Shown one piece after another: positions 2,005 through 42,480 of a stretch of DNA of 64,000 nt; within the stretch, counting starts at the first letter, position 1; each line of letters opens with the position of its first letter. The position numbers and the translations under genes were made by a program. The notes under the pieces were generated by a model. It was not told the DNA's origin, ran no database searches, and was given only the letters and a program-made list of their open reading frames with translations. The stretch comes from Dryococelus australis. Taxonomy: Eukaryota > Arthropoda > Insecta > Phasmatodea > Phasmatidae. Where the stretch lies: contig CM057005.1 in the NCBI GenBank assembly GCA_029891345.1, positions 61,645,760 through 61,709,759 of the forward strand, in the 5' to 3' direction.

Positions 2005-2411
2005 TATAGTCTATTCGCGGTTTATTCACACTTTTTGAATCAAACCTTGAAAAATCTCCCCATGTATGACGTGTTTAGTTATTTCTTATATATGTCATGT
2101 ATCACAAGCGTTTTATACTTGTGTTCATAAAAGTTACTTTTTTTTCTATTAAATTTAAATGTAATTCATATTTTATCTACAAATTATAATGCTTGATTGA
2201 TAAATAATGTGAACAAAAACAAGCGCCTTGTGAGAAATAGTTCTTATAGGAAATCCTGTAACACTGAGTGCGCACGAATGCGGTGCGTTGTCCTTTCGTG
2301 TAATTTTCCAGACTTAGTCAAGCTTCGTTTACACGGAGGCGGAGGAATATCCTTGAGGCAGAACTTTAGCAGGGCTTCAGAAAAGGCTGGAGTAGCCGTG
2401 AATGGATTACA
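2005..2411 (+). mobile_element. MITE-C copy 1
   Basis: About 407 bp. Left end TATAGTCTATTCGCGGTTTA, then CACACTTTTTGAATCAAACC. Right end GCCGTGAATGGATTACA. Shared family blocks are CATGTATGACGTGTTTAG near the left and GAGGCGGAGGAATATCCT near the right. It lies 34 bp after MITE-B copy 2 and is followed at once by a CpG-rich block. Confidence 0.8.
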
Positions 2412-2417
2412 TTAAAA

Positions 2418-2840
2418 TGTCGCGCCGTTGTAATTGGGCGAAACAACGGACACGCGCGGACACCGAAGCACACGGGGGAAGACGAGAAATCAGCGGAGGC
2501 GGGGTCACAAAGCCCTGCAGCACTCGCTGACGGGGAACATTGTGGTCGCGGCACTGCGTTGCAATATCCGACGGCGCCGAACTGTTCATTTCCCCCCCCC
2601 CCCTCCTCTTCGCCGCGGCATCGCAGGGCACCATCCGACACGAGCGAGATAGACCCGCCCGGCCGCTGTTAAGGTGATTTTCCACCCCCGCGCGGGGTAA
2701 GGGTGAGGGTTGGGGGGGGGAGCCTGCGGAGTGTGTCGAGGGCGAAGGGGGGAGGGTGTGCCGTCGGGAATTAGGCTAAACACGTGCCTCCCAGCGGTCT
2801 GAAGGGTGGGAGGGTTCGCGCATCGACGGCTGGTTTAAAC
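2418..2840. other. CpG-rich block
   Basis: GC- and CpG-rich against an AT-rich background, with a 12-base C run at 2592-2603. The several short frames here look like a by-product of composition. I see no splice-bounded exon. It could be a promoter-type island or the remnant of a GC-rich repeat. Confidence 0.5.
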
Positions 2841-2884
2841 CGGTCCAGTAACCTTTCACAGCCTCCATAAACCTCACTGTCCTT

Positions 2885-3361
2885 TATAGCTTATTCACTG
2901 TAAAGCGAGAACTTTTGGAAGCCGTCTCAATTGGAATAATAATCAATAAATATATTTTATTTTAGCCTTAGACGTTAACTTCCGAGTACGGTGGAATATA
3001 CATACTATGTTTATTAAAGGCTGTTCACGGTAAAGTGAGCACTTTTGTGGCCCTAGTTACATTTTCCTTTCAGCCATTTTTCATACTCTAACAACCTTTT
3101 TAAATAAAAACTGCCATGCAAATAATTAACACAGTGTGTATATTCCACCGCATCTGGAATTTAACGTGTAGGACTAAAATAAAGAATATTTTTTGGCTGT
3201 TATTACGAATTCGAGGGCTTCCAAAAGTGCTCACTTTACTGTAAATAGCCTATACTTACATTGAAATATTTATTTAAAAAAGTGGTTAAATGATAAAATA
3301 TGACTGAAAGAAAACTGTAACCAGGTCTTTAAAAGTACTCATTTTTCCGTGAACACTATAT
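2885..3361 (+). mobile_element. MITE-A copy 2, outer element split by another MITE-A
   Basis: The left half, 2885 to about 3015, reads as canonical MITE-A up to the ACTATGTTTATTA block. The right half resumes at about 3255 with CTTACATTGAAATATTTATTT and ends with a degenerate right terminal repeat, CCGTGAACACTATATA. Removing 3015-3254 restores a normal MITE-A order. Confidence 0.85.
3015..3254 (-). mobile_element. MITE-A copy 3, nested inside copy 2
   Basis: A complete about 240-bp MITE-A in reverse orientation, with ends AAAGGCTGTTCACGGTAAAG and CTTTACTGTAAATAGCCTATA. It lies inside the outer copy at a TA, so it inserted later. Confidence 0.85.
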
Positions 3362-11035: not shown

Positions 11036-11371
11036 AGTCCTCTTAATGAGTGCAGATAGTGTGAGTCGTTAGTGTGTGTATACATACACCAGGGTCGAAT
11101 TTTAAAGGGAGGTGGGAGGATGGTCAAGGAGTACATGCGCTCAACCATTAAAAAACTCACAGTGACACGAAACTGTCCTGCGAATGTTTTAAAAAAGTGA
11201 AACTGAAATATAGCACTGCTGTTTAAAATACCGTTTCCTAAAACTGCGCTGTGGCAGTGCTCTCTCTCATTCCAAGACTCGATAAAGTCAATACCTCCAC
11301 CTGCGGAATGGGAAAGTGAAATTCTCCCTTTCAAACCGAGAGTCAAGAACCTCTCCTGATGTAAACTGGCA
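11036..11371. other. Non-coding DNA
   Basis: An open frame of 123 codons on the minus strand has no recognisable domain. Nothing else supported. Confidence 0.4.
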
Positions 11372-11609
11372 TATCCTATTCACGATAAATCGAGCACATT
11401 TCAAAGCCCTCTCAATCGGAATAATGCTCAATAAGTATATTCCATTTCAGCCCTGGACGTTAACTTCCGAGTGTGGTGGAATATACATATTGTGACAGTT
11501 ACTTACATGGCAATATTTATTTAAGAAGGCGATTAAAGATTAAAATATGGGCGAAAGGAAAAAGCAACTACAGCCTCAAAAGTGCTCAATTTACCGTGAA
11601 CAGCCTATA
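11372..11609 (+). mobile_element. MITE-A copy 4
   Basis: Canonical interior (ATAAGTATATTCCATTTCAG, GGTGGAATATACATATTGTG). The left end is eroded (TATCCTATTCACGATAAA); the right end is intact (TTTACCGTGAACAGCCTATA). Its right edge lies 3 bp from MITE-E copy 1. Confidence 0.85.
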
Positions 11610-14012: not shown

Positions 14013-15237
14013 AAATGTCTTGCCATAACTTAAGAAATGTATTTTTAAGAATGCACTTTAGCGTGCTTTGTCACTACATGCATCAAAGGAATCATTTGCG
14101 CACATATTGAAACGTATGGTTGAGATATTTAGTCTGAAATATTTTGGCTTAATAAGCTCTTATCAAACCCTAGAAAGCGCTCATTTAGCCAAACAGAACA
14201 AGATTTGGTTAAGTGCCTACGAGTACTAGTTTTCAAGGGGTTTTGCTTAGATACCTTTTGACATATTTAGAGTTTCGACTAATAGGATTTTGCCTAATAG
14301 CACTTAATATAACAGACGTTTGGTCTATCATTCATTTTTCCTAAATGCGATTAGCCTACATTGTCGGCGGAACTTAAATGGCATTAATAACTGTCGAGCT
14401 TGCTGGTTAAAATTTATTTTGGACAAACTGTGTTTTATAATTTTCAGACGTTTATAACTGCGTAATGCAAACCATGTAATATAATCAATTGTTTTTATTC
14501 TAACATATCTATACTTGCGTCTTTTAAGTTTTGCAAAATCTGTTCTATTTTTAGTGTTTTAAAAATACATGTTTAAAGTGATTTTTATTTATCAAAGAAT
14601 TTTCTGTGGGATGGTCAGACGGAAAGCATTATCATATGCATGGAAGGTAAAGTAATGTAATTACAGAAATCCATCACCAAATGATAAAATGATTTCTCGA
14701 AAGCCTCTGGCGTGAGTAATAGCACTTAGGAGATTAAATTCAACTAACCAAATGCTCACGTCTCTCGAACAGTACTGACATTAAATTTTTGTCACGATAG
14801 AAGGACATTTCTAGATGCATTTGCATTGTGTTAGGCCTAAACATCAAATAAAAAACATGAATTGTATTAGTGATATATATTTTTAACTGTTGTACGGAAA
14901 CAATTCGCTATTTATATGAAAATAAAATACAATTAAATTATGTCACACGTGACCGCATCGCGTATTAAATAAATTCATAAAAACTATAATTATTTAATAG
15001 CCACCATTCTGAAAATATGTGTGTCCTACTTTAAAAAAAAATACCTTTTTTATTATGTCCCAGCAAAGTACAATATCTTCGCCATATTTGGTCAGAATGA
15101 GTTGATTGTTTCCCGAGATACGAGATAAAATCATAATTTTTGTATTGGCAATGTGACAGTGGGGTTCGTCACCATAGTGGAATTTGTACTTTTCTTTTAA
15201 GATTTCTTATGTGTTTTTTTTTTTTTTTTTTTTTTTC
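14013..15237. other. AT-rich DNA; T23 run before repeat H
   Basis: Mostly featureless. 15000-15130 contains CCACCATTCTGAAAATATG and TTGATTGTTTCCCGAGATA blocks that resemble 17430-17545 on the other side of repeat H. A run of 23 T at 15214-15236 is followed by CCAG, like a 3' splice site, but there is no exon evidence after it. Confidence 0.4.
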
Positions 15238-15571
15238 CAGAGTTGCTGCCTTGTGCGCGCGACCCCTTGGGTTGCTCCTGTGCAGCAGTGCCTTGGTGTG
15301 CGACTGGTTGCTTTGCGGAGGCTCAAGGCGCTCGTATTCTCTGCCTCGTGCTGATTGGATGGCTTTGACGTATAATAATGAATTATGTTGGGAAAGAGTG
15401 CGTTAGTGATGACGTCGGGTGGTCTCCGGAGAGGGGGCATGCCTGGTAGGGATTTTTATTTGGGCATAAATACCGGTGCTAGTGGCTGTTTCGGGGAGAG
15501 CGTCGCCGGCGCTGAGGCCCTTGAGAGGCCTTCACGGAACCGAGGGAGGGCGTCGCCCGGCGAGGATCGGG

Positions 15572-15810
15572 TATAGGCTATTCACGGTGAAGTGAGCACT
15601 TTTGAAAGCCCTCTCATTTACAATAATAGTCAATAAATACATTTTATTTGGCCTTGGAAGTTAACTTCCGATTGCGGTGAAATATAGACTCTGAGTTCGT
15701 TCCTTAGATGGTAATATTTATTTAGAAAATTGGTTAAAGGATAAGAAAATGCTGAAAGAAAAAAGTAACCAGGGCCTCTAAAGTGCTAACTTTACCGTCA
15801 ACAGCCTATG
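15572..15810 (+). mobile_element. MITE-A copy 5, inside repeat H
   Basis: Canonical ends TATAGGCTATTCACGGTGAA and TTTACCGTCAACAGCCTATG with the family interior. It interrupts the leader of repeat H and is therefore younger than that copy of H. Confidence 0.85.
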
Positions 15811-15885
15811 CCAGCGAAGCGGTCTTCACTGCGGGCTGGAGCCGGACCAGGAGATGGGAGCCTTATTACGAGGCTAGGATGTGTG

Positions 15886-15911
15886 CAGAGAGAGAGAGAG
15901 AGAGAGAGAGA
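15886..15911 (+). repeat. (AG)n microsatellite
   Basis: Thirteen AG units, followed by an A-rich stretch. Confidence 0.95.
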
Positions 15912-15959
15912 AAAACAAAGCATGACGAAAAAGTTAAGTATCGAGTAACATAGAATCCA

Positions 15960-16560
15960 GACTTAGAACATTTTCAAGTAGAGTGCGGGCTTTGAATAAT
16001 TTCCGGGCAGGGTTTTCGACCTTTGATTATTTTCGAGCAAATAGTGAACTTTGAAAAATATTTGCCAGAAAATGAACTTACAAATTTCTTTGCCCGTGAA
16101 TGTACTTTGAGTAAAACTTTTGGCCGTTCTCAGACTTTGATATAATTCGTGGCGTGTATGAGGACTTAGGATGGTATTGGCTGCGTGCGGACTTGGTGTT
16201 CATTTGCCTATGTGGGAACTTGGATTTCGACTTTTGGGGAAATTTTTCGTACTTTTACTTGTGCTGGGCGGTTTTGAATGAGGTCGCCGATAAGGTGAAG
16301 TCGGGACTTAGGGAAAATCACCGCCTCATGTGTAAGAGCGGAAACTTCGTCAATTTCGAGTATAGTAGAGACGGGAATTCTGGAACTCGTGATATGGCGA
16401 CTTTTCCGGGCGTCGACTTTGGGCAGTGTTGGGAGCAGTTGCCAAGAGAGCGTGTTCGGGACTTAGAAATTTCACTGCCAAAGTGGGCGAAGAGAAGAAA
16501 TTGGTCGTGTTACGAGTGGATGAGTTGAGGACTTTGGATTGTCTGTGTTGGAATACCTAA
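15960..16560 (+). repeat. Quasi-periodic GACTT(T/A)GA leader inside repeat H
   Basis: A GACTT-type motif (GACTTAGA, GGCTTTGAA, GACCTTTGAT, GAACTTTGAA, GAACTTACAA, GTACTTTGAG, GACTTTGAT, GACTTAGGA, GACTTGGTG, GAACTTGGAT) starts again about every 26-35 bases. It is followed in most units by a T-rich then G-rich stretch. Spacing becomes looser after about 16260. It reads as a decayed minisatellite of roughly 29 bp. Confidence 0.6.
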
Positions 16561-16689
16561 GTACAGGCGCAGGACGGGTTGAGTGAAGCATAGTTTTTGG
16601 ACTTGGATGGGGAATGCTACAATGATTCAGTTTTGGATCAGTTCTTGAGAAAACTGACTGGTGAATGTGGTGAGTGTGTGTGGTGTGCG

Positions 16690-16930
16690 AATAATATGCG
16701 AGAGCAATACCTACACTTTCGAGTGTACTGGTGGGGGCAATACACTCGTGATTTAGCCTGTGTGTATGTGCGAGTTGATAGTGTATAGCTTGTCATGTTA
16801 GGGCAATACCTATACCTCTGGTGTTCTGTTGGGGGCAATACCCCTGGGCTCTTGCATGCGAATGGGAGAGCGATACAGTTTGAGCAATACCAACACTTTT
16901 GAGTGTACTGGTGGGGGCAATGCCCTCAGG
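16690..16930 (+). other. Cluster of CAATA-loop hairpins in repeat H
   Basis: Short inverted repeats close on a (G)CAATA loop with different but complementary stems: TAGG/CCTA at 16799-16812, GGGG/CCCC at 16831-16844, GGGGGC/GCCCTC at 16913-16927 and a weaker TTG/CAA at 16880-16893. A separate ACACT-TTCG-AGTGT hairpin sits at 16713-16726 and a 7-bp GAGTGTA/TACACTC pair at 16721-16747. The inverted H copy has the same loop with other stems. Confidence 0.5.
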
Positions 16931-17429
16931 CTCAAATTTGTTTTACTGGATTGTTGGTGATGAGTGTTTTGGTGTAGAGTGTGTTGGTTTAAAAAGGGCA
17001 ATTTCGTGGGAAAGTGCTGGTATAATTTTTGGGCATTTAGATTCGGCGAACACTTTATATACGTGTAAATAAATCTATTTGCGAAATAGTTTAAAGCAAA
17101 TTGTTAGTTCAACAATTTAACAGGAATTTAATGAAATGCCAGTGTGTAATTTGTTTGAAGATTGTTTTTAGTGGTGCTTTTTATTAACCTTCAACGTTGA
17201 TGGACAAAAATTAATGTTCATATCAGTGAAATTGGGTTGTGTTGTATGTGTATACTTTTGACACCCATCCACTCTGGACAGAATAGTAAGACAATAACAA
17301 TACCTACTCTGCTGATAATGTTGATATTGGGTATGTTGGAGGGGAATGTAATTCCTTTCCTTCCATTTCCTTGGGGTTTCAGGCTTTAGTGGAGGGTTGG
17401 GAAGGAGGTTGTGTCGGTGATGATTTCAC

Positions 17430-17780
17430 AATGGTCTGTCACCATACAAAATTTGGTTTAAATCGGTTGACTGATTCCCGAATATGACACATCACCCAAA
17501 AAATTTTAATGGCCGCCATTTTGAAAGTAAGTGCCTGACGTCATCTTAAACTATAGAAGTCAGGTGACCTTACTAAGTGTTATATGCGTCCCAAGTCTGG
17601 TTAAATTTAGTTAAAGAGTTCAAAAATTTAAAGGGGACACACACACGCACATACACACACCCAGCCACTTACATACACACTAACACAACACACACGCACA
17701 CACACCCAGAAACCTACAGACACACACATACATACACACTACCACAACACACACACATACACACAGACAGGACAGTGATC
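17430..17780 (+). repeat. LINE-like 3' tail with (CA)n/(ACAG)n tract
   Basis: It has CAAAATTTGGTTTAAATCGG and GACTGATTCCCGAATATG followed by a long ACACAC-rich tract (about 17638-17765) ending ACAGACAGG. In arthropods this combination of AAATCGGT...CCGAGATA text and an ACACAGACAG tail is common at LINE 3' ends. That is inference, as no reverse transcriptase is present. Confidence 0.4.
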
Positions 17781-21717: not shown

Positions 21718-21905
21718 ATTCGTTCCACCTGGGCTAAACGGGTTCGATTCCCGGCGGGTCGCTTCCGGATTGCACTTGAGGGTATCGTGCAGGACGATGC
21801 CGCTGGTCGGCGGGCTTTTCCGGGGATCTCCCGTTTCCCCTGCCCTTGCATTACGGCGCTGCTCCATACTCACCTTGTTTCGCCCTCATTGGCTCTCAAG
21901 ACCTA
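21718..21905 (+). mobile_element. SINE-A copy 3
   Basis: B-box GGGTTCGATTCCCGGC followed by the full body (GACGATGCCGCTGGTCGGCG, GGCGCTGCTCCATACTCACC, GGCTCTCAAGACCT). The A-box side of the head is lost. Confidence 0.85.
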
Positions 21906-22757: not shown

Positions 22758-25025
22758 TATGGAATACCACTAAACACATTTTAAAAAATTAATGTACAAG
22801 AAAAATTTCCATGTCTTGCAAGTAACCCTAAAGAGTTATAAAATACTGCTATATGAAAAATATCAGACAAATTTGTAGACCTACAAGTAATTTAGTTAGT
22901 CTGTAGCGAAAATTTAAGTATTGCTGTGGTCAACATTACTTGCAGTAATCACAAACATAATGTCCACCTTCGTGACCAGCACATTCCACATGTGACCACA
23001 TTTCACAAAGCACACACATGATCCACTCTTCTCCGCGCACATCAGAGAATCTTCCACTGCAGAAAAGGCATTCTGCATCTCCATTCTCTGGCACCGACAC
23101 ATCAGGAATACTGAGATCGGACGAATCATCCCTAATGCTCATATCTGCACCCGTGTTTTCCGATGACGAGTCATCATCACAAAGAGAAATTGTGTGTATA
23201 GACTTTCTAGTGGCTCTCTTCGTCGTTTTTTTTTGTTTCCTACTAGCATTGGCCTGAGTGTAGTTCTAGGTCTACACTTTCCTCTTAAGATCTTCCCAGA
23301 ATTTTTTTTAAGGATTCTTCTAGCTGTAACTTGTATGGTGAAGACGTCAAGACAGCTGCTGTGCCAGCGTTTCTTCCTCGAGTACCCTATTTTTTTAATT
23401 TGGAAATTGGATATATGTTCCATGAGGCTACATAGGCTATTCACGAACGAGCTGAATAGCTAGATGTACCAGCAGCTATAGGTGAATCAGCTGAAGAGTT
23501 TGATGGACCAGCAGCCATAGGTGAAGCAGCTGAAGAGTTTGATGGATCAGTGAGTCTATTTTCTGGCAGACCAGCAGAACAGATAAAAGAATCAGTAGGT
23601 CTAAACCTACACCTAGCCCTGGACGAGTAGACAATGTCAATATCAGAAGTAGCCCTAGTGAATGCAATAGAAGTGGTGTCTGGGTCACTTGATGATAGGA
23701 ATTCATTGCCAGGAAATATGTGGGGATTAACTGGATAAATACCAGTCCATCTGAAACCATTTACTGCGATTTCACCTTTTTTTGTACTTTGAGGTACGCT
23801 TTGCTTAATAACTCTGCTACGTTGAAATTCGTTACAGGGCGGGTGTTTTATCGCATCCACAGCTGCACCAATGGCTCCCGGAGGAGCTCCCCTCATGAGG
23901 TGTGGACTCATATTTTTTCTAGGAAATACCAACATTGGAGGTACGTAATATCCGCCTGCACTCATGCATGTCACCACAGTAACAAGAGAGCCGCGCTCAG
24001 CTCAACTGATGGATGCTACTTGCAGTTTTACTTTCAGTGCGAGAACCTGTGGGATTTTACTTTGGACAATAGTCAGACCTGTTTCGTCTACATTGTAGAC
24101 CCTGTCAGCGGGGTATTTGTGCTTATTCAATTCTGACTCCAAAAGGGTAAAAAAAACTGCTGTACATTTTCTCTGTTAAATCCCACAGCTCTGTGAAACG
24201 AAGTTGCAGTTGGTTTACGAAATGATAAAATGTGCTTGTGTCGCTTTAAGAACAGTCTTAACCATCCCCTTGCCTGATGCAAAAGGATTACTGGTGTTGT
24301 TAGCTTTAGCAATTTGGTAAGCCATGTTTCGAATATCTTCCATCGTTAGACCAAAGAATTTATTCTCCACCAACAACAGATATTCTACGAGCTGCTTTTC
24401 ACATTCCGCGGGTAGGACTGTTTTCCTACCGAGCTTTGTTTGACACGCCACCTCAGGAGAGAGGGCTGTCCGGACAAGTCTAAACAATGTAGCTCAAGGA
24501 ACACCGAAAACCTTTGCAGCCTTTAGATAACCCATATTATTTTCTCTCACCTGGGATATAGCCATTTCCATAACTGCTGCATCCCACTGCTTTCTTTTCT
24601 CCTTCTCTTTTTTTCGATTTCCACGCGCCATATCTGCACAAAAAAATTTGAACATCAGGTCACAATTATGGAATAGTATTCCATATTAGTCACCTAGCCA
24701 TTTTGAAATACTTGCTGTCACAAATGTTGTACAACTGCGCCTTTATACAACAACAATTACATCTTTAGTAAGACTTATCCATGTACTTTAAGCTCCATTA
24801 TTACACCTATCCTAATAACTTACAATACTGTTGTAATTAAATAATAAATACATCCCTGTAAAAGTTTCCAATTCTTGAAAAATGTGAATAGCACAGCACA
24901 ATAAAAACGGAACTCGGAGAATGGTTGTGCTTCCTCACATGAGCAGCGCTGGTTCGGACGTCGTGTTTCTCAATGCTACCGACAGAGTGCAGCACCTACT
25001 TCATGAGATATTGTGGTATTCCATA
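22758..25025 (-). mobile_element. Pogo/Tigger-like DNA transposon, inactive
   Basis: A transposase relic (22936-24631, minus strand) lies between two inverted copies of TATGGAATACCAC: 22758-22770 and, as GTGGTATTCCATA, 25013-25025. A similar TATGGAATAGTATTCCATA stretch at 24676-24694 would be a subterminal repeat. If the outer TA pairs are the target duplication, the element runs 22760-25023, about 2.26 kb. TA targets and an HTH/DDE transposase fit the pogo branch of Tc1/mariner. The terminal repeats are inferred from one exact 13-bp match. Confidence 0.65.
22936..24631 (-). pseudogene. Pogo/Tigger-like transposase with C-terminal PHD-like zinc finger, deleted and frameshifted
   Basis: Read on the minus strand. 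Start ATG at 24631 gives MARGNRKKEKEKRKQWDAAV, then an HTH (psq/CENP-B type) with VRENNMGYLKAAKVFGVP and one stop (24489-24498 region). Next comes a second DNA-binding block with LGRKTVLPAECEKQLVEYLL and, after a frameshift, [19 protein letters not shown]. The first catalytic Asp is visible in VYNVDETGLT, near 24090. After [10 protein letters not shown]...GAPPGAIG (about 23880) the sequence jumps to the post-catalytic part ([16 protein letters not shown]), so the region with the second and third Asp is gone. The C-terminus has a C-x2-C, then CxLCEMWSHVECAG and CDYC, a PHD-like zinc finger. Two further frameshifts lie at 23140-23440. It cannot encode an active enzyme. Confidence 0.85.
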
Positions 25026-26606: not shown

Positions 26607-26832
26607 CCCTCCACCCACTTCGGGGCGAAGAATCTGTAGCCCACCACTCCACATTTCCAAAAACATTTCTCTCGTGGCAAGCGTCTCGTCCATCTCAAAA
26701 ACATTGGCTGCGAAATAACCTCTGTATTCTTACGCAGTATTATTTGCTGAGTAGCAGATAAGTAGCAATCTGAGTTCTGAGATTTTATTAAGGGGGCTGC
26801 GCGCCGCAGCCCTCCCTCAGCAGCCACCACTG
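25271..26832. mobile_element. Non-autonomous hAT-like transposon
   Basis: 1562 bp. Left end CAGTGGAGGCTCGTGA; right end, read inward, CAGTGGTGGCTGCTGA. The flanks are TCCCTTTG (25263-25270) and TTCCTTTG (26833-26840), an 8-bp target duplication with one mismatch, as expected for the hAT superfamily. CAGTGG starts are frequent in hAT elements. No transposase frame is visible. It lies within repeat H. Confidence 0.75.
26567..26603 (+). repeat. (CT)n microsatellite
   Basis: About 18 CT units, inside the hAT-like element. Confidence 0.95.
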
Positions 26833-27004
26833 TTCCTTTGTCCTGAACAAACTACATAAACGAAAACCACCCTCACAGTCGTACTCCATATCTGAGCTTC
26901 CATACAGGTCACCATTCAGGTCCAATACCCAGTAATACTCTTCCCACAGGTTATGACTGGTACTGGGCCTCCACACTCTCATCTCCACTCTGCCAACTCA
27001 GGGT

Positions 27005-27081
27005 GAGGATATTGTCCTCATCGGTAGCCGAAGTTTCCCTGAGCTGACACACACACGTGTAGGGCTGAGGATATTGTCCCC
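27005..27081 (-). other. CAATA-loop hairpin pair in minus copy of H
   Basis: On the minus strand, GAGGA-CAATA-TCCTC (27005-27019) and GGGGA-CAATA-TCCTC (27067-27081) form 5-bp stems (the second with one G-T pair). The loop is the same as in the plus copy of H; the stems differ. Confidence 0.5.
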
Positions 27082-28159
27082 ACACTTTCCCGCGAACGGG
27101 CTGTACTTCCCTCCCCATTACCTAAACATACCAACACCCCACACCATACACATATCCAAAACCCACCCTTAAGCTTCCCTTTCCCACAACATCCCATATA
27201 ACCAATATGTCCAGGTCTCCACTGATTCGATCTTCTATCGCTCCCTCGTAGCAATCTCCCCAACCTCAACTTGCCGGATCGCTTCTTCACTCGAATGTCT
27301 CCAAAATTCCCAACGATTCTCACTTGAGGAAACTCCTCCCATAACACTGTCAACGGCCTAGTAGGGAACTCGACCTTGACAAGATCCTCACACGCATTTT
27401 GAGCCTACCGCATAGCAAAATCCGTAAACACATTAAATGCCCTTCCAGACGCAGGAAACGACTAAGTCCATAACGTCGTACACCGAAAAGTCAAAGTTTC
27501 CATAATTATTCACTGTGGCGTTCGGTTCCCATCTGGCATAAAATATGTCCCCACTAGTAATGACTTTCCAACAACATAGTTCCAGAAACAATACGGCGAA
27601 GAAATTCTAAGTCCCGATACTAGGAACCCCGACAACCTGGTTAATTTTCTAAGTCCCACATCCTACTGTCGATCGGAGCGACCTCTACCAGCATCCCGAC
27701 GTCCATTTACTTATCTTGGGATCTGCGAATCAGCATCCCGTTCCAAGGGCTGATAACTACTCAGACCCAAGGAACCTCGCTCACTGACGGGCGAATTCCT
27801 AGACTAAGGCTCGCGCCCCTCTATATATACCGGCCGCCTATCCCTACTCAAGCCTACCCCCTCCCAGGAGCCAGACCCCTGCTTCACCTATACGCCAGCA
27901 GCGCGCTCTTTACCACCCGAGCGTGCTCTATTCGCTCGCCATGCCATCTACTATACACAAATACTCGGCAAGCCCGCGAACTCGCCCCGCCAATAGGAGC
28001 TTAGTGCGTGAACAGAAGCCCAGTCTTGATAACACTGCAACTTGTACAACACTCGTGATGGGAGGGTTGCCCACTCATAGGCGTCTCAAGGCAACATACG
28101 AGACTTCAATGCAACACCATTTCACTCTCTCAATTTGGGACGGGAAACTCCGTCACAGC

Positions 28160-28316
28160 ACGTTCTGTATTCTTCCGCTTTATGTAAGATTAACACTGTT
28201 AAGGGCCTCATGCTTTATTCATGAGTTTTTTCAAGTTAAACTGTGAAATTGTTAGAAAAGCAAATATTTTACACATCTGCTCATTTTTACTCTTCGATGC
28301 ATTAAAAAAAACACTC
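28160..28316 (-). mobile_element. MITE-B fragment
   Basis: Reverse orientation. It has GTATTCTTCCGCTTTATGTA, GGGCCTCATGCTTTATTCATG and the CACATCTGCTCATTTTTACTC block of MITE-B. Both ends are missing. It abuts element P at 28317. Confidence 0.65.
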
Positions 28317-40339: not shown

Positions 40340-40574
40340 TAGGCTGTTCACGGTAAAGTGAGTGCTTTTGAAAGTGCTCTCCTTTTTTAATAATAGTCAA
40401 TGAATATATTTTATTTCAGTCTTAGACGCTAACTTCTGAGTGCGGTGGAATAAACACACTGTGTTTATTACTCACAGCAACATTTATTTTAAAAGGTGGG
40501 TAAAGGACAAAAATAGCCGAAAGAAAAAGTTACTAGGGCCTCAAAAGTGCTCACTTTACCGTGAACAGACTATA
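40340..40574 (+). mobile_element. MITE-A copy 6
   Basis: TAGGCTGTTCACGGTAAAGT left and CTTTACCGTGAACAGACTATA right, canonical interior. Confidence 0.88.
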
Positions 40575-41801: not shown

Positions 41802-42164
41802 ATGTATCCAAGGCGCATCCGTTCTTCTGGATACTACCCGAGGAAGGTTTATCGTAATATTGTGTCTTTTACTAAGTATGTCAATAAAGATGATAGGTCT
41901 TGGACAGTTAAGATCCTTAATATACAAGAGAGTTCTAATTTGTTGTCTTTTTTGTACCATTTTGGTCTTCAAGGAATAACTCCTAAAGCAGGTAGTGGTT
42001 TATTGGAAATGTATTTCTTCAGAAGATATCATGTCGAGAAGGAGCCTGCACCAAACGAGATTAGTGAGATTGATCCAAACAGGATAATATGTTGGAAGAC
42101 TTTTCCAGTTCATGAGGGCAAGGCAGGCAATACTGCTGTAATTAGTGTTTTTGGTAATGCCTGA
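41802..42164 (+). CDS. Unrecognised 120-residue basic protein, candidate gene
   Basis: Starts MYPRRIRSSGYYPRKVYRN, so the N-terminus is rich in Arg, Lys and Tyr, followed by a mixed alpha/beta-looking region with no signal peptide or membrane segment. The ATG is 13 nt after a good 3' splice site and is the first in the frame. The frame is unusually long for this AT-rich DNA. The stop lies at the edge of a MITE-A copy, whose AATAAA boxes (about 42257 and 42313) could serve for polyadenylation. I do not recognise a family. A basic N-terminus occurs in many nucleic-acid-binding proteins and in some small viral coat proteins, but nothing here proves either. It could also be a chance frame. Confidence 0.4.
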   Translation: MYPRRIRSSGYYPRKVYRNIVSFTKYVNKDDRSWTVKILNIQESSNLLSFLYHFGLQGITPKAGSGLLEMYFFRRYHVEKEPAPNEISEIDPNRIICWKTFPVHEGKAGNTAVISVFGNA

Positions 42165-42388
42165 AGTCAGTACTTTGGGGCCTTAGTTACTTTTTAAGTT
42201 AAGCCATTTTTTAATCCTTTAACCATATTTTGAAACAAATTTTACCATGTAAGTAATAAACACAGTGTGTTTATTTTCCACCCCACTTGGGAAGCTAACA
42301 TCCAAGGCTAAAATAAAATATATTTATTGACTACTAATCCAAAGGAGAGGGTATTCAAAAGTTCTCACTTTACCATGAATAGTCTATA
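42165..42388 (-). mobile_element. MITE-A copy 7, left edge eroded
   Basis: Reverse orientation. It begins within the terminal repeat (AGTCAGTACTTTGGGGCC, cf. AGTGAGCACTTTTGAGGCC) and ends TTTACCATGAATAGTCTATA. About 20 bp of the left terminal repeat is missing or altered where the 41802 frame ends. Confidence 0.8.
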
Positions 42389-42480
42389 CAATGTGTAACT
42401 GAAAATCACCGACAAACACCGGAGGTGATTCCTGACGAACATAAAAGACGATAATGTATGTAATATTTTTCCATAAAATG

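Follow-up and report, generated by a model that had tools for sequence, protein, structure and literature searches.

The stretch of DNA analysed here, hereafter the window, comprises 64,000 nucleotides of contig CM057005.1 of the phasmatid insect Dryococelus australis. Two sites in it (the H sites) contain short hairpins with a CAATA loop, which a sequence-only reading had picked out as a possible retroelement signal or as part of a structured non-coding RNA. The retroelement setting was borne out, as both H sites lie inside long terminal repeats (LTRs) of Ty3/Gypsy-type elements. The hairpin also proved real, but it is merely one arm, P3, of a three-way junction of ~66 nt that is arranged in tandem inside the LTRs of two related Gypsy-type families, with three units at 16695–16940 on the plus strand and two at 27118–26993 on the minus strand. 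Each junction is built from an outer stem (P1), a hairpin (P2) and a second hairpin (P3) bearing the CAAUA loop. Three search models are referred to below: R1, a covariance model trained on the plus units u1–u3; R2, a sequence-only model; and R3, trained on all five units. The features are as follows.

15152–17430, plus strand: LTR of the plus family, Ty3/Gypsy-type; starts TGTGACAG; 3′ end near 17430, within some nucleotides
16695–16760, plus strand: unit u1, consensus fold, R1 83.1 bits (u1 is in the training set); degraded, its own minimum-energy fold is not a three-way junction
16733–16747, plus strand: P3 arm of u1 in the consensus fold, GGGGG-CAATA-CACTC, one mismatch
16794–16858, plus strand: unit u2, whose own minimum-energy structure is a three-way junction in which P2 is shifted and the loop has six letters (GCAAUA)
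16831–16845, plus strand: P3 arm of u2 in the consensus fold, GGGGG-CAATA-CCCCT
16875–16940, plus strand: unit u3, own minimum-energy fold a three-way junction
16913–16927, plus strand: P3 arm of u3 in the consensus fold, GGGGG-CAATG-CCCTC
26833–28157, minus strand: 5′ part of the LTR of the minus family, with the TGTGACGG start at 28157 and TATATATA at 27829; cut off at ~26833
26993–27047, minus strand: unit m2, R1 23.5 bits, E 2.3e-4; alone folds as a three-way junction
27005–27019, minus strand: P3 arm of m2, GAGGA-CAATA-TCCTC; relatives 97.7% identical over 300 aligned letters
27055–27118, minus strand: unit m1, R1 26.8 bits, E 2.4e-5; 3′ strand of P1 mostly deleted here, present in most relatives
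27067–27081, minus strand: P3 arm of m1, GGGGA-CAATA-TCCTC; relatives 97.7% identical over 299 aligned letters

The LTRs that Carry the Junctions

Both LTRs start with TGTGAC (15152 and 28157) and have a TATA-like box ~315–330 nt further in, which in the plus LTR is TAAATA at ~15467. The two are distantly alike along their length: their alignment scores 636 vs 524 ± 35 for shuffled sequence (0/200 as high; the best other tile of the window reaches 557), and their 5′ parts alone score 320 vs 204 ± 24 (0/200). The start of the plus LTR was set by comparison with the minus LTR and with the point where the LTR begins in L053, a plus-family relative elsewhere in the genome. Relatives align from 15145 in one case (L067) and from 15200–15271 in others; because they mostly align 50–120 nt further in, the 5′ edge at 15152 rests on the TGTGAC motif, and at the 3′ edge their alignments end mostly at 17416–17428. 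In the minus family, which was profiled from 20 loci, 13 relatives begin aligning at 28157–28160 and the alignment of every one of the 20 breaks off at 26833–26843, indicating that the window copy is truncated there, as the relatives run to ~2.2 kb. The minus-family LTR measures 2161–2333 bp, and a 4-bp target-site duplication surrounds TGTGAC...GCTCA in 4 of the 10 loci scanned; among the other six, one has a 4-bp match at another end and five have no duplication. The same search gave no duplication for the two LTR copies of the window or for the plus relatives. An 11-bp repeat flanking the minus LTR, AAGAATACAGA, was rejected as a target duplication, since the LTR is truncated and the upstream one of the two copies is part of an older repeat. 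Nor was AATAAA at 26789 accepted as a poly(A) signal for the minus LTR, because the alignments of all 20 relatives have ended before reaching it; ten of the 20 minus loci were examined over the 700 nt that follow m2, and none has an AATAAA there. Just outside the truncated minus LTR (26784–26815, minus strand) lies a hairpin rich in GC, GGGCTGCG...CGCAGCCC, with TTAATAAA immediately after it.

The nature of the carrier elements was read from one plus-family element, L053, in which an LTR pair was checked. Two H-bearing repeats in the same direction, 79–81% identical, are separated there by ~3.8 kb, and three of seven tested pieces of the internal region have domain matches, namely to RT_RNaseH_2 (E 8.8e-27) and RT_RNaseH (9.3e-23), with further matches to RVT_1 (2.3e-5, below the curated cut-off) and zf-CCHC (2.6e-4). 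An LTR pair around remnants of RNase H, reverse transcriptase and a zinc knuckle identifies the carriers as Ty3/Gypsy-type; to judge by the divergence of its LTRs, this element is old, and it is broken. A Pfam search of 10 of the 100 listed open reading frames of the window gave no match among those at the H sites. Two plus-family H sites at C17:75816977 and C17:75827814, 10.8 kb apart on one strand, are possibly a second LTR pair.

Two further repeats occur within these LTRs. A MITE-like family of ~240 bp with TATAGGCTRTTCACGG-like ends has an insertion at 15572–15812 in the plus LTR and further window copies at 1278–1521, 3018–3255, 11368–11608, 40340–40573 and 42164–42389; one relative (L040) lacks the insertion, its alignment running from 15510 straight on to 15788, and another (L048) apparently retains parts of the insertion's ends. 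The 64 kb contain four copies of the short motif GGGACTTAG (16303 and 16458 on the plus strand, 27657 and 27615 on the minus strand), all in the sense direction of the two LTRs and downstream of the TATA box, where degenerate repeats resembling GGACTTTG surround them; they may form a second motif array.

A Three-Way Junction in Tandem

A structure-blind MAFFT alignment of u1–u3 was folded by RNAalifold into P1 (10 pairs), a short A-rich strand, P2 (8 pairs) and P3 (5 pairs with the CAAUA loop), and 14 of 2000 column shuffles folded as well. The P2 loop is of UUYG type in u1, u3 and m1. When both strands of the 64 kb were searched with R1 up to an E-value of 10, only m1 and m2 were found besides u1–u3; R2 recovered its own three training units only and missed m1 and m2. 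Pattern searches of viral contigs gave 0, 0 and 31 matches, and the 31, which are chance-like and were picked for the P3 16-mer, served as a control: their best R1 score was 16.2 bits, vs 26.8 for m1 and 23.5 for m2, and P3 alone therefore does not explain the latter two matches. With R3, however, one of these contigs, chosen for nothing but that 16-mer, reached 24.1 bits (E 0.0009); the E-values of the models are rough, and values of such size are not decisive alone. The five units aligned without structure reached a fold z of −6.8, with 0/1000 shuffles as good. Taken singly, the window copies of u1 and m1 did not fold into a three-way junction, and in a scan of 1598 tiles single-sequence stability was outstanding for u3 and m2 only.

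The CAATA hairpins themselves are concentrated at the two sites. The window contains CAATA 173 times on both strands, seven of them in the H sites; a stem of at least four pairs (G-U allowed) closes 4/7 of these vs 12/166 elsewhere (Fisher p 0.0015), and for Watson-Crick-only stems the figures are 3/7 and 4/166 (p 0.0013). The copies at 16705, 16738 and 16885 have stems of merely 1–2 pairs. A degenerate P3 motif, G[GA]GG[GA]CAAT[AG][CT], has five matches in 64 kb (both strands), and all five lie within the two LTRs in sense orientation. Of the stems first described around the loop, GAGGA/TCCTC and GGGGA/TCCTC at the minus site coincide with the P3 arms of m2 and m1, and GGGG/CCCC at the plus site is likewise a P3 arm, but TAGG/CCTA falls outside the consensus fold. 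This last hairpin (16799–16812) is not kept in u1 and u3 and was dropped as a part of the motif. The GGGGGC/GCCCTC hairpin at 16913–16927 is a P3 arm as well, although it encloses AAT (CAATG in register) and not GCAATA as had been reported.

Copies Elsewhere in the Genome

A DNA search of the genome yielded at least 54 matches to the plus site from 40 scored of 166 candidates, and at least 40 matches to the minus site from 40 scored of 511 candidates, from which 38 plus-type and 20 minus-type stretches were taken as relatives. Outside the window, R1 found 115 units in 38/38 plus-type stretches, always on one strand per stretch: one unit in six stretches, two in six, three in 20, four in one, five in two, and six (L053, with its two LTRs), seven and ten in one each. 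In the minus-type stretches, R1 gave 27 matches at E ≤ 1 (25 at E ≤ 0.01) in 18/20, and no unit at E ≤ 1 in L093 and L100. The stretch with ten units, L066, holds them at 2189–3100, mostly 92 nt apart, and represents a strong array expansion. The hundreds of candidate copies amount to a natural mutation record, in which the letters and pairs that mattered can be read from the genome.

Paired Changes in the Stems

Covariation was assessed on 112 distinct units of the 115 plus units outside the window, identical ones being removed. In an alignment fitted to the model, the summed covariation of 23 window-derived pairs was 218 vs 1.6 ± 40.5 in tree-based simulations (0/200), and 24 compensated double changes were counted on branches vs a mean of 3.4 and a maximum of 10 when partners were permuted (200 runs). 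These strongest counts come from the model-fitted alignment, and those from a structure-blind MAFFT alignment are weaker: for 22 pairs, a summed covariation of 82 vs 4.2 ± 46.4 (9/200), and 14 compensated double changes vs a mean of 3.2 and a maximum of 9 (200 runs). Most of the stem covariation falls in P1, the outer stem, and at the closing pair of the CAAUA loop. Across units, pair 3-64 is GC in 31, UA in 27 and AU in 15; pair 7-60 is AU in 47 and UA in 28; and pair 43-49, which closes the loop, is GC in 60 and AU in 29. The arms of P1 also pair better with their own partner (−7.51 kcal/mol) than with swapped ones (−5.43 ± 0.23 kcal/mol; 0/1000; 113/115 units, relatedness uncorrected). Folded alone, 47 of 90 plus units adopt the three-way junction vs 15% when the flanks are shuffled and P3 is kept; the 90 are those of the 115 units remaining after 25 in which the P3 loop was not located by pattern.

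The sequence-only reading had claimed a kept loop with stems changing pairwise, and had proposed covariation over the genomic copies as the check. The claim is supported when the whole junction and the genomic copies are considered, through the tree-aware aggregates and the P1 arm swap, and support is weaker from the window alone. Covariation (computed with our own script, not R-scape) is detected as an aggregate but for no single pair: in a tree-aware single-pair test, no pair reached E < 0.05, and the best (E 0.12) lay outside the structure. The 115 distinct units used in that test also yielded no fold with RNAalifold; much unpaired decay in old copies may be the cause, but the result is a negative one.

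The minus family provides a second set of units. In a 21-copy alignment, the 3′ strand of P1 of m1 has letters in 18/20 relatives (not in L096 and L102), and these are complementary to the 5′ strand. With the reference row L088 and the window left out of the counts, the 24 pairs predicted for m1 from L088 are standard in 380/429 cells of the other 19 relatives, and the 19 pairs of m2 in 323/347 cells, vs 31–58% in slid controls; the window copy of m1 has letters for 16/24 pairs, 15 of them standard, and that of m2 has 19/19. Among the 14/20 loci with two exact P3 cores, 12/14 copies of m1 fold alone as the three-way junction vs 13% with flanks shuffled and P3 kept, and 10/14 copies of m2 vs 11%. 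Unit m1 is thus damaged by deletion in the window but folds in relatives.

The pairing might be a chance feature that was inherited by descent, the arrays being a byproduct of tandem duplication and shared ancestry. Related units can beat letter shuffles without any structure, the tree-aware single-pair test was negative, and the arm-swap rank among the five units of the window was only 6/120 for P1 (12/120 for P3). The tree-aware aggregate tests were nevertheless positive, the minus units were found by the structure model and missed by the sequence model, and relatives retain, in complementary form, the m1 arm that the window copy has lost. Chance descent is accordingly regarded as very improbable, and an RNA structure is very probably conserved at the H sites. 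That the copies keep their shape while their letters change suggests that the element RNA needed the fold.

Letters, Strand and the Level of Action

The letters kept in the junction are not those of its outer stem: in plus units, the loop letters AAUA are 95–97% conserved vs 38–79% for P1 columns 1–7. Two of the three letters of the first junction strand are 99% conserved in plus units, and the exact CAAUA loop occurs in 69/112. In the minus copies, identity to the window copy is 97.7% in each of the two P3 arms vs 84–94% per 100 nt of LTR. The P1 letters differ between the plus and minus families and still pair.

The strand was examined through G-U and A-C cells. G-U cells exceed A-C cells by 244:120 in plus units, 38:10 in m1 and 24:12 in m2, as expected for a sense-strand RNA. 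Counted as branch events, the ratio is 101:93 overall and 31:20 on internal branches; so small a bias suggests the sense strand, not more. The modules probably act as sense RNA.

An alternative at the level of DNA would be an array of palindromic sites for a dimeric DNA-binding protein, of a promoter-downstream or insulator type, in which the symmetry of the hairpin reflects two half-sites. The near-palindromic P3 is kept at 97.7% in the minus family, and the repeated motif GGGACTTAG, in sense direction at 4/4 occurrences in the two LTRs, indicates that these LTRs do carry short motif repeats. Such sites would not predict P1 and P2, however, and the P1 arms fit their own partner (no swap in 1000 did as well) and pair despite different letters in the two families; moreover, pair 40-52 is most often G-U (64/112 units). 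DNA-level sites are therefore considered unlikely, and both they and chance descent are less likely than the readings in which the modules act in RNA.

A Possible Docking Array in the Element RNA

The H arrays lie within the LTR and downstream of the TATA-like box. From this position the modules would be transcribed into the 5′ leader (R-U5) of the element RNA and, if located in R, would also be present at its 3′ end; the transcription start and poly(A) sites of the carrier elements are predicted. Less surely, the CAAUA loops and the A-rich first junction strand may be read by a protein, for which a tandem array would offer multivalent docking. The zinc-knuckle Gag of the element itself is the first candidate reader, because the highest-affinity nucleocapsid sites of the HIV-1 leader are close to three-way junctions, according to part of the published account (PMC7395439), and the role would then be the selection and packing of RNA. 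As a whole, a junction array in the RNA leader acting as a multivalent, packaging-type protein-docking signal is the best explanation at hand, with a probability of about one half; the docking of Gag and packaging by the modules, which are argued by analogy, are put forward tentatively.

The main rival to packaging is that the modules act in RNA through a host protein that reads the CAAUA arms and thereby affects nuclear export or retention, stability, or cap-independent translation of the unspliced RNA. The structural evidence is the same for both, and the sequence gives this rival no preference over packaging. Precedents appear in the available portions of several sources: structured cis-acting export elements are known in LTR elements (PMC5767303), a Rex-response stem-loop has been described in HTLV-1 (PMC2664473), and a Gypsy LTR contributes to the nuclear retention of a locust lncRNA (PMC8786324). 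A host-protein role of this kind is possible, though we would not favour it.

Returning to the packaging-type docking array, a broader and rather speculative proposal is that the CAAUA three-way junction constitutes a new RNA motif family, an expandable docking array of insect Gypsy elements in which the number of units tunes the recruitment of the element's own RNA by Gag or a host protein. Under this proposal, tandem duplication would change the number of units, which ranges from 1 to 10 per stretch when L053 is set aside, and lineages would be free to rewrite the outer stem as long as the loop and junction letters are kept.

Relation to Known RNA Elements

To our knowledge, the cis-acting RNA signals of LTR retrotransposons are poorly defined outside yeast and vertebrate retroviruses, and we know of no CAAUA loop in the HIV-1 core encapsidation signal. 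Rfam 15 gave 0 matches at the gathering cut-off in the window and in 19 of the 58 relatives, and when both H sites were searched permissively, every match fell far short of the cut-offs. A literature search, which covered few subscription journals, found no comparable module in the titles and abstracts listed. The modules are placed among the cis-acting structured RNAs of LTR elements, of which their CAAUA three-way-junction form appears to be a new variant. LTRs, which are usually taken as promoters only, can hold a conserved RNA fold that escapes a sequence model from one family to the other.

The hammerhead ribozyme is a three-way-junction RNA with the core CUGANGA ... GAAA. It was rejected as an identity for the modules, as CUGANGA occurs in 1/120 units, followed by GAAA in 0/120, and no Rfam match was obtained. 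Retrozymes, small Gypsy-like LTR elements with hammerhead ribozymes, are similar in that they place a three-way-junction RNA in the LTRs of Ty3/Gypsy-related elements and occur in tandem copies, as far as the accessible part of the report goes (PMC4918200); they differ in having noncoding LTRs of ~350 bp, whereas the LTRs here are ~2.2 kb, have coding relatives and contain the hammerhead core in 0/120 units.

In the sections consulted of PMC7395439, the core encapsidation signal of HIV-1 comprises tandem three-way junctions with the highest-affinity nucleocapsid sites nearby. The likeness lies in three-way junctions in a 5′ leader, a predicted location in the insect element; the difference is that the HIV-1 signal is one of ~150 nt, whereas the insect has an expandable array of ~66-nt modules. 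RNA transport elements (musD, MLV PTE, RRE) and the HTLV-1 Rex-response element resemble the modules as structured cis-acting RNAs in the transcripts of LTR elements (PMC5767303, PMC2664473, each in part), but no three-way-junction array is named for the transport elements in the portion of PMC5767303 covered. The Ty1 and Ty3 elements are comparable as LTR retrotransposons whose RNA is selected for particles, and the localisation and packaging of Ty3 RNA depended on UTRs or POL sequences (PMC4974528, in part); according to the same pages of that review, the determinants are not precisely defined, and no comparable motif appears there.

Other Features of the Window

Two weak protein matches lie on the minus strand between the LTRs. 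An open reading frame at 22939–23265 has a weak PHD-finger match (E 0.0014, below the cut-off), and broken pieces at 23444–24493 have a weak HTH_Tnp_Tc5 match (E 0.011, below the cut-off); we take the latter pieces to be of a pogo/Tc5-type transposase. A repeat family with copies at 21770, 31781, 50588 and 57538 shares an ATCGTGC-GGA-GAT block and is, as a guess, SINE-like.
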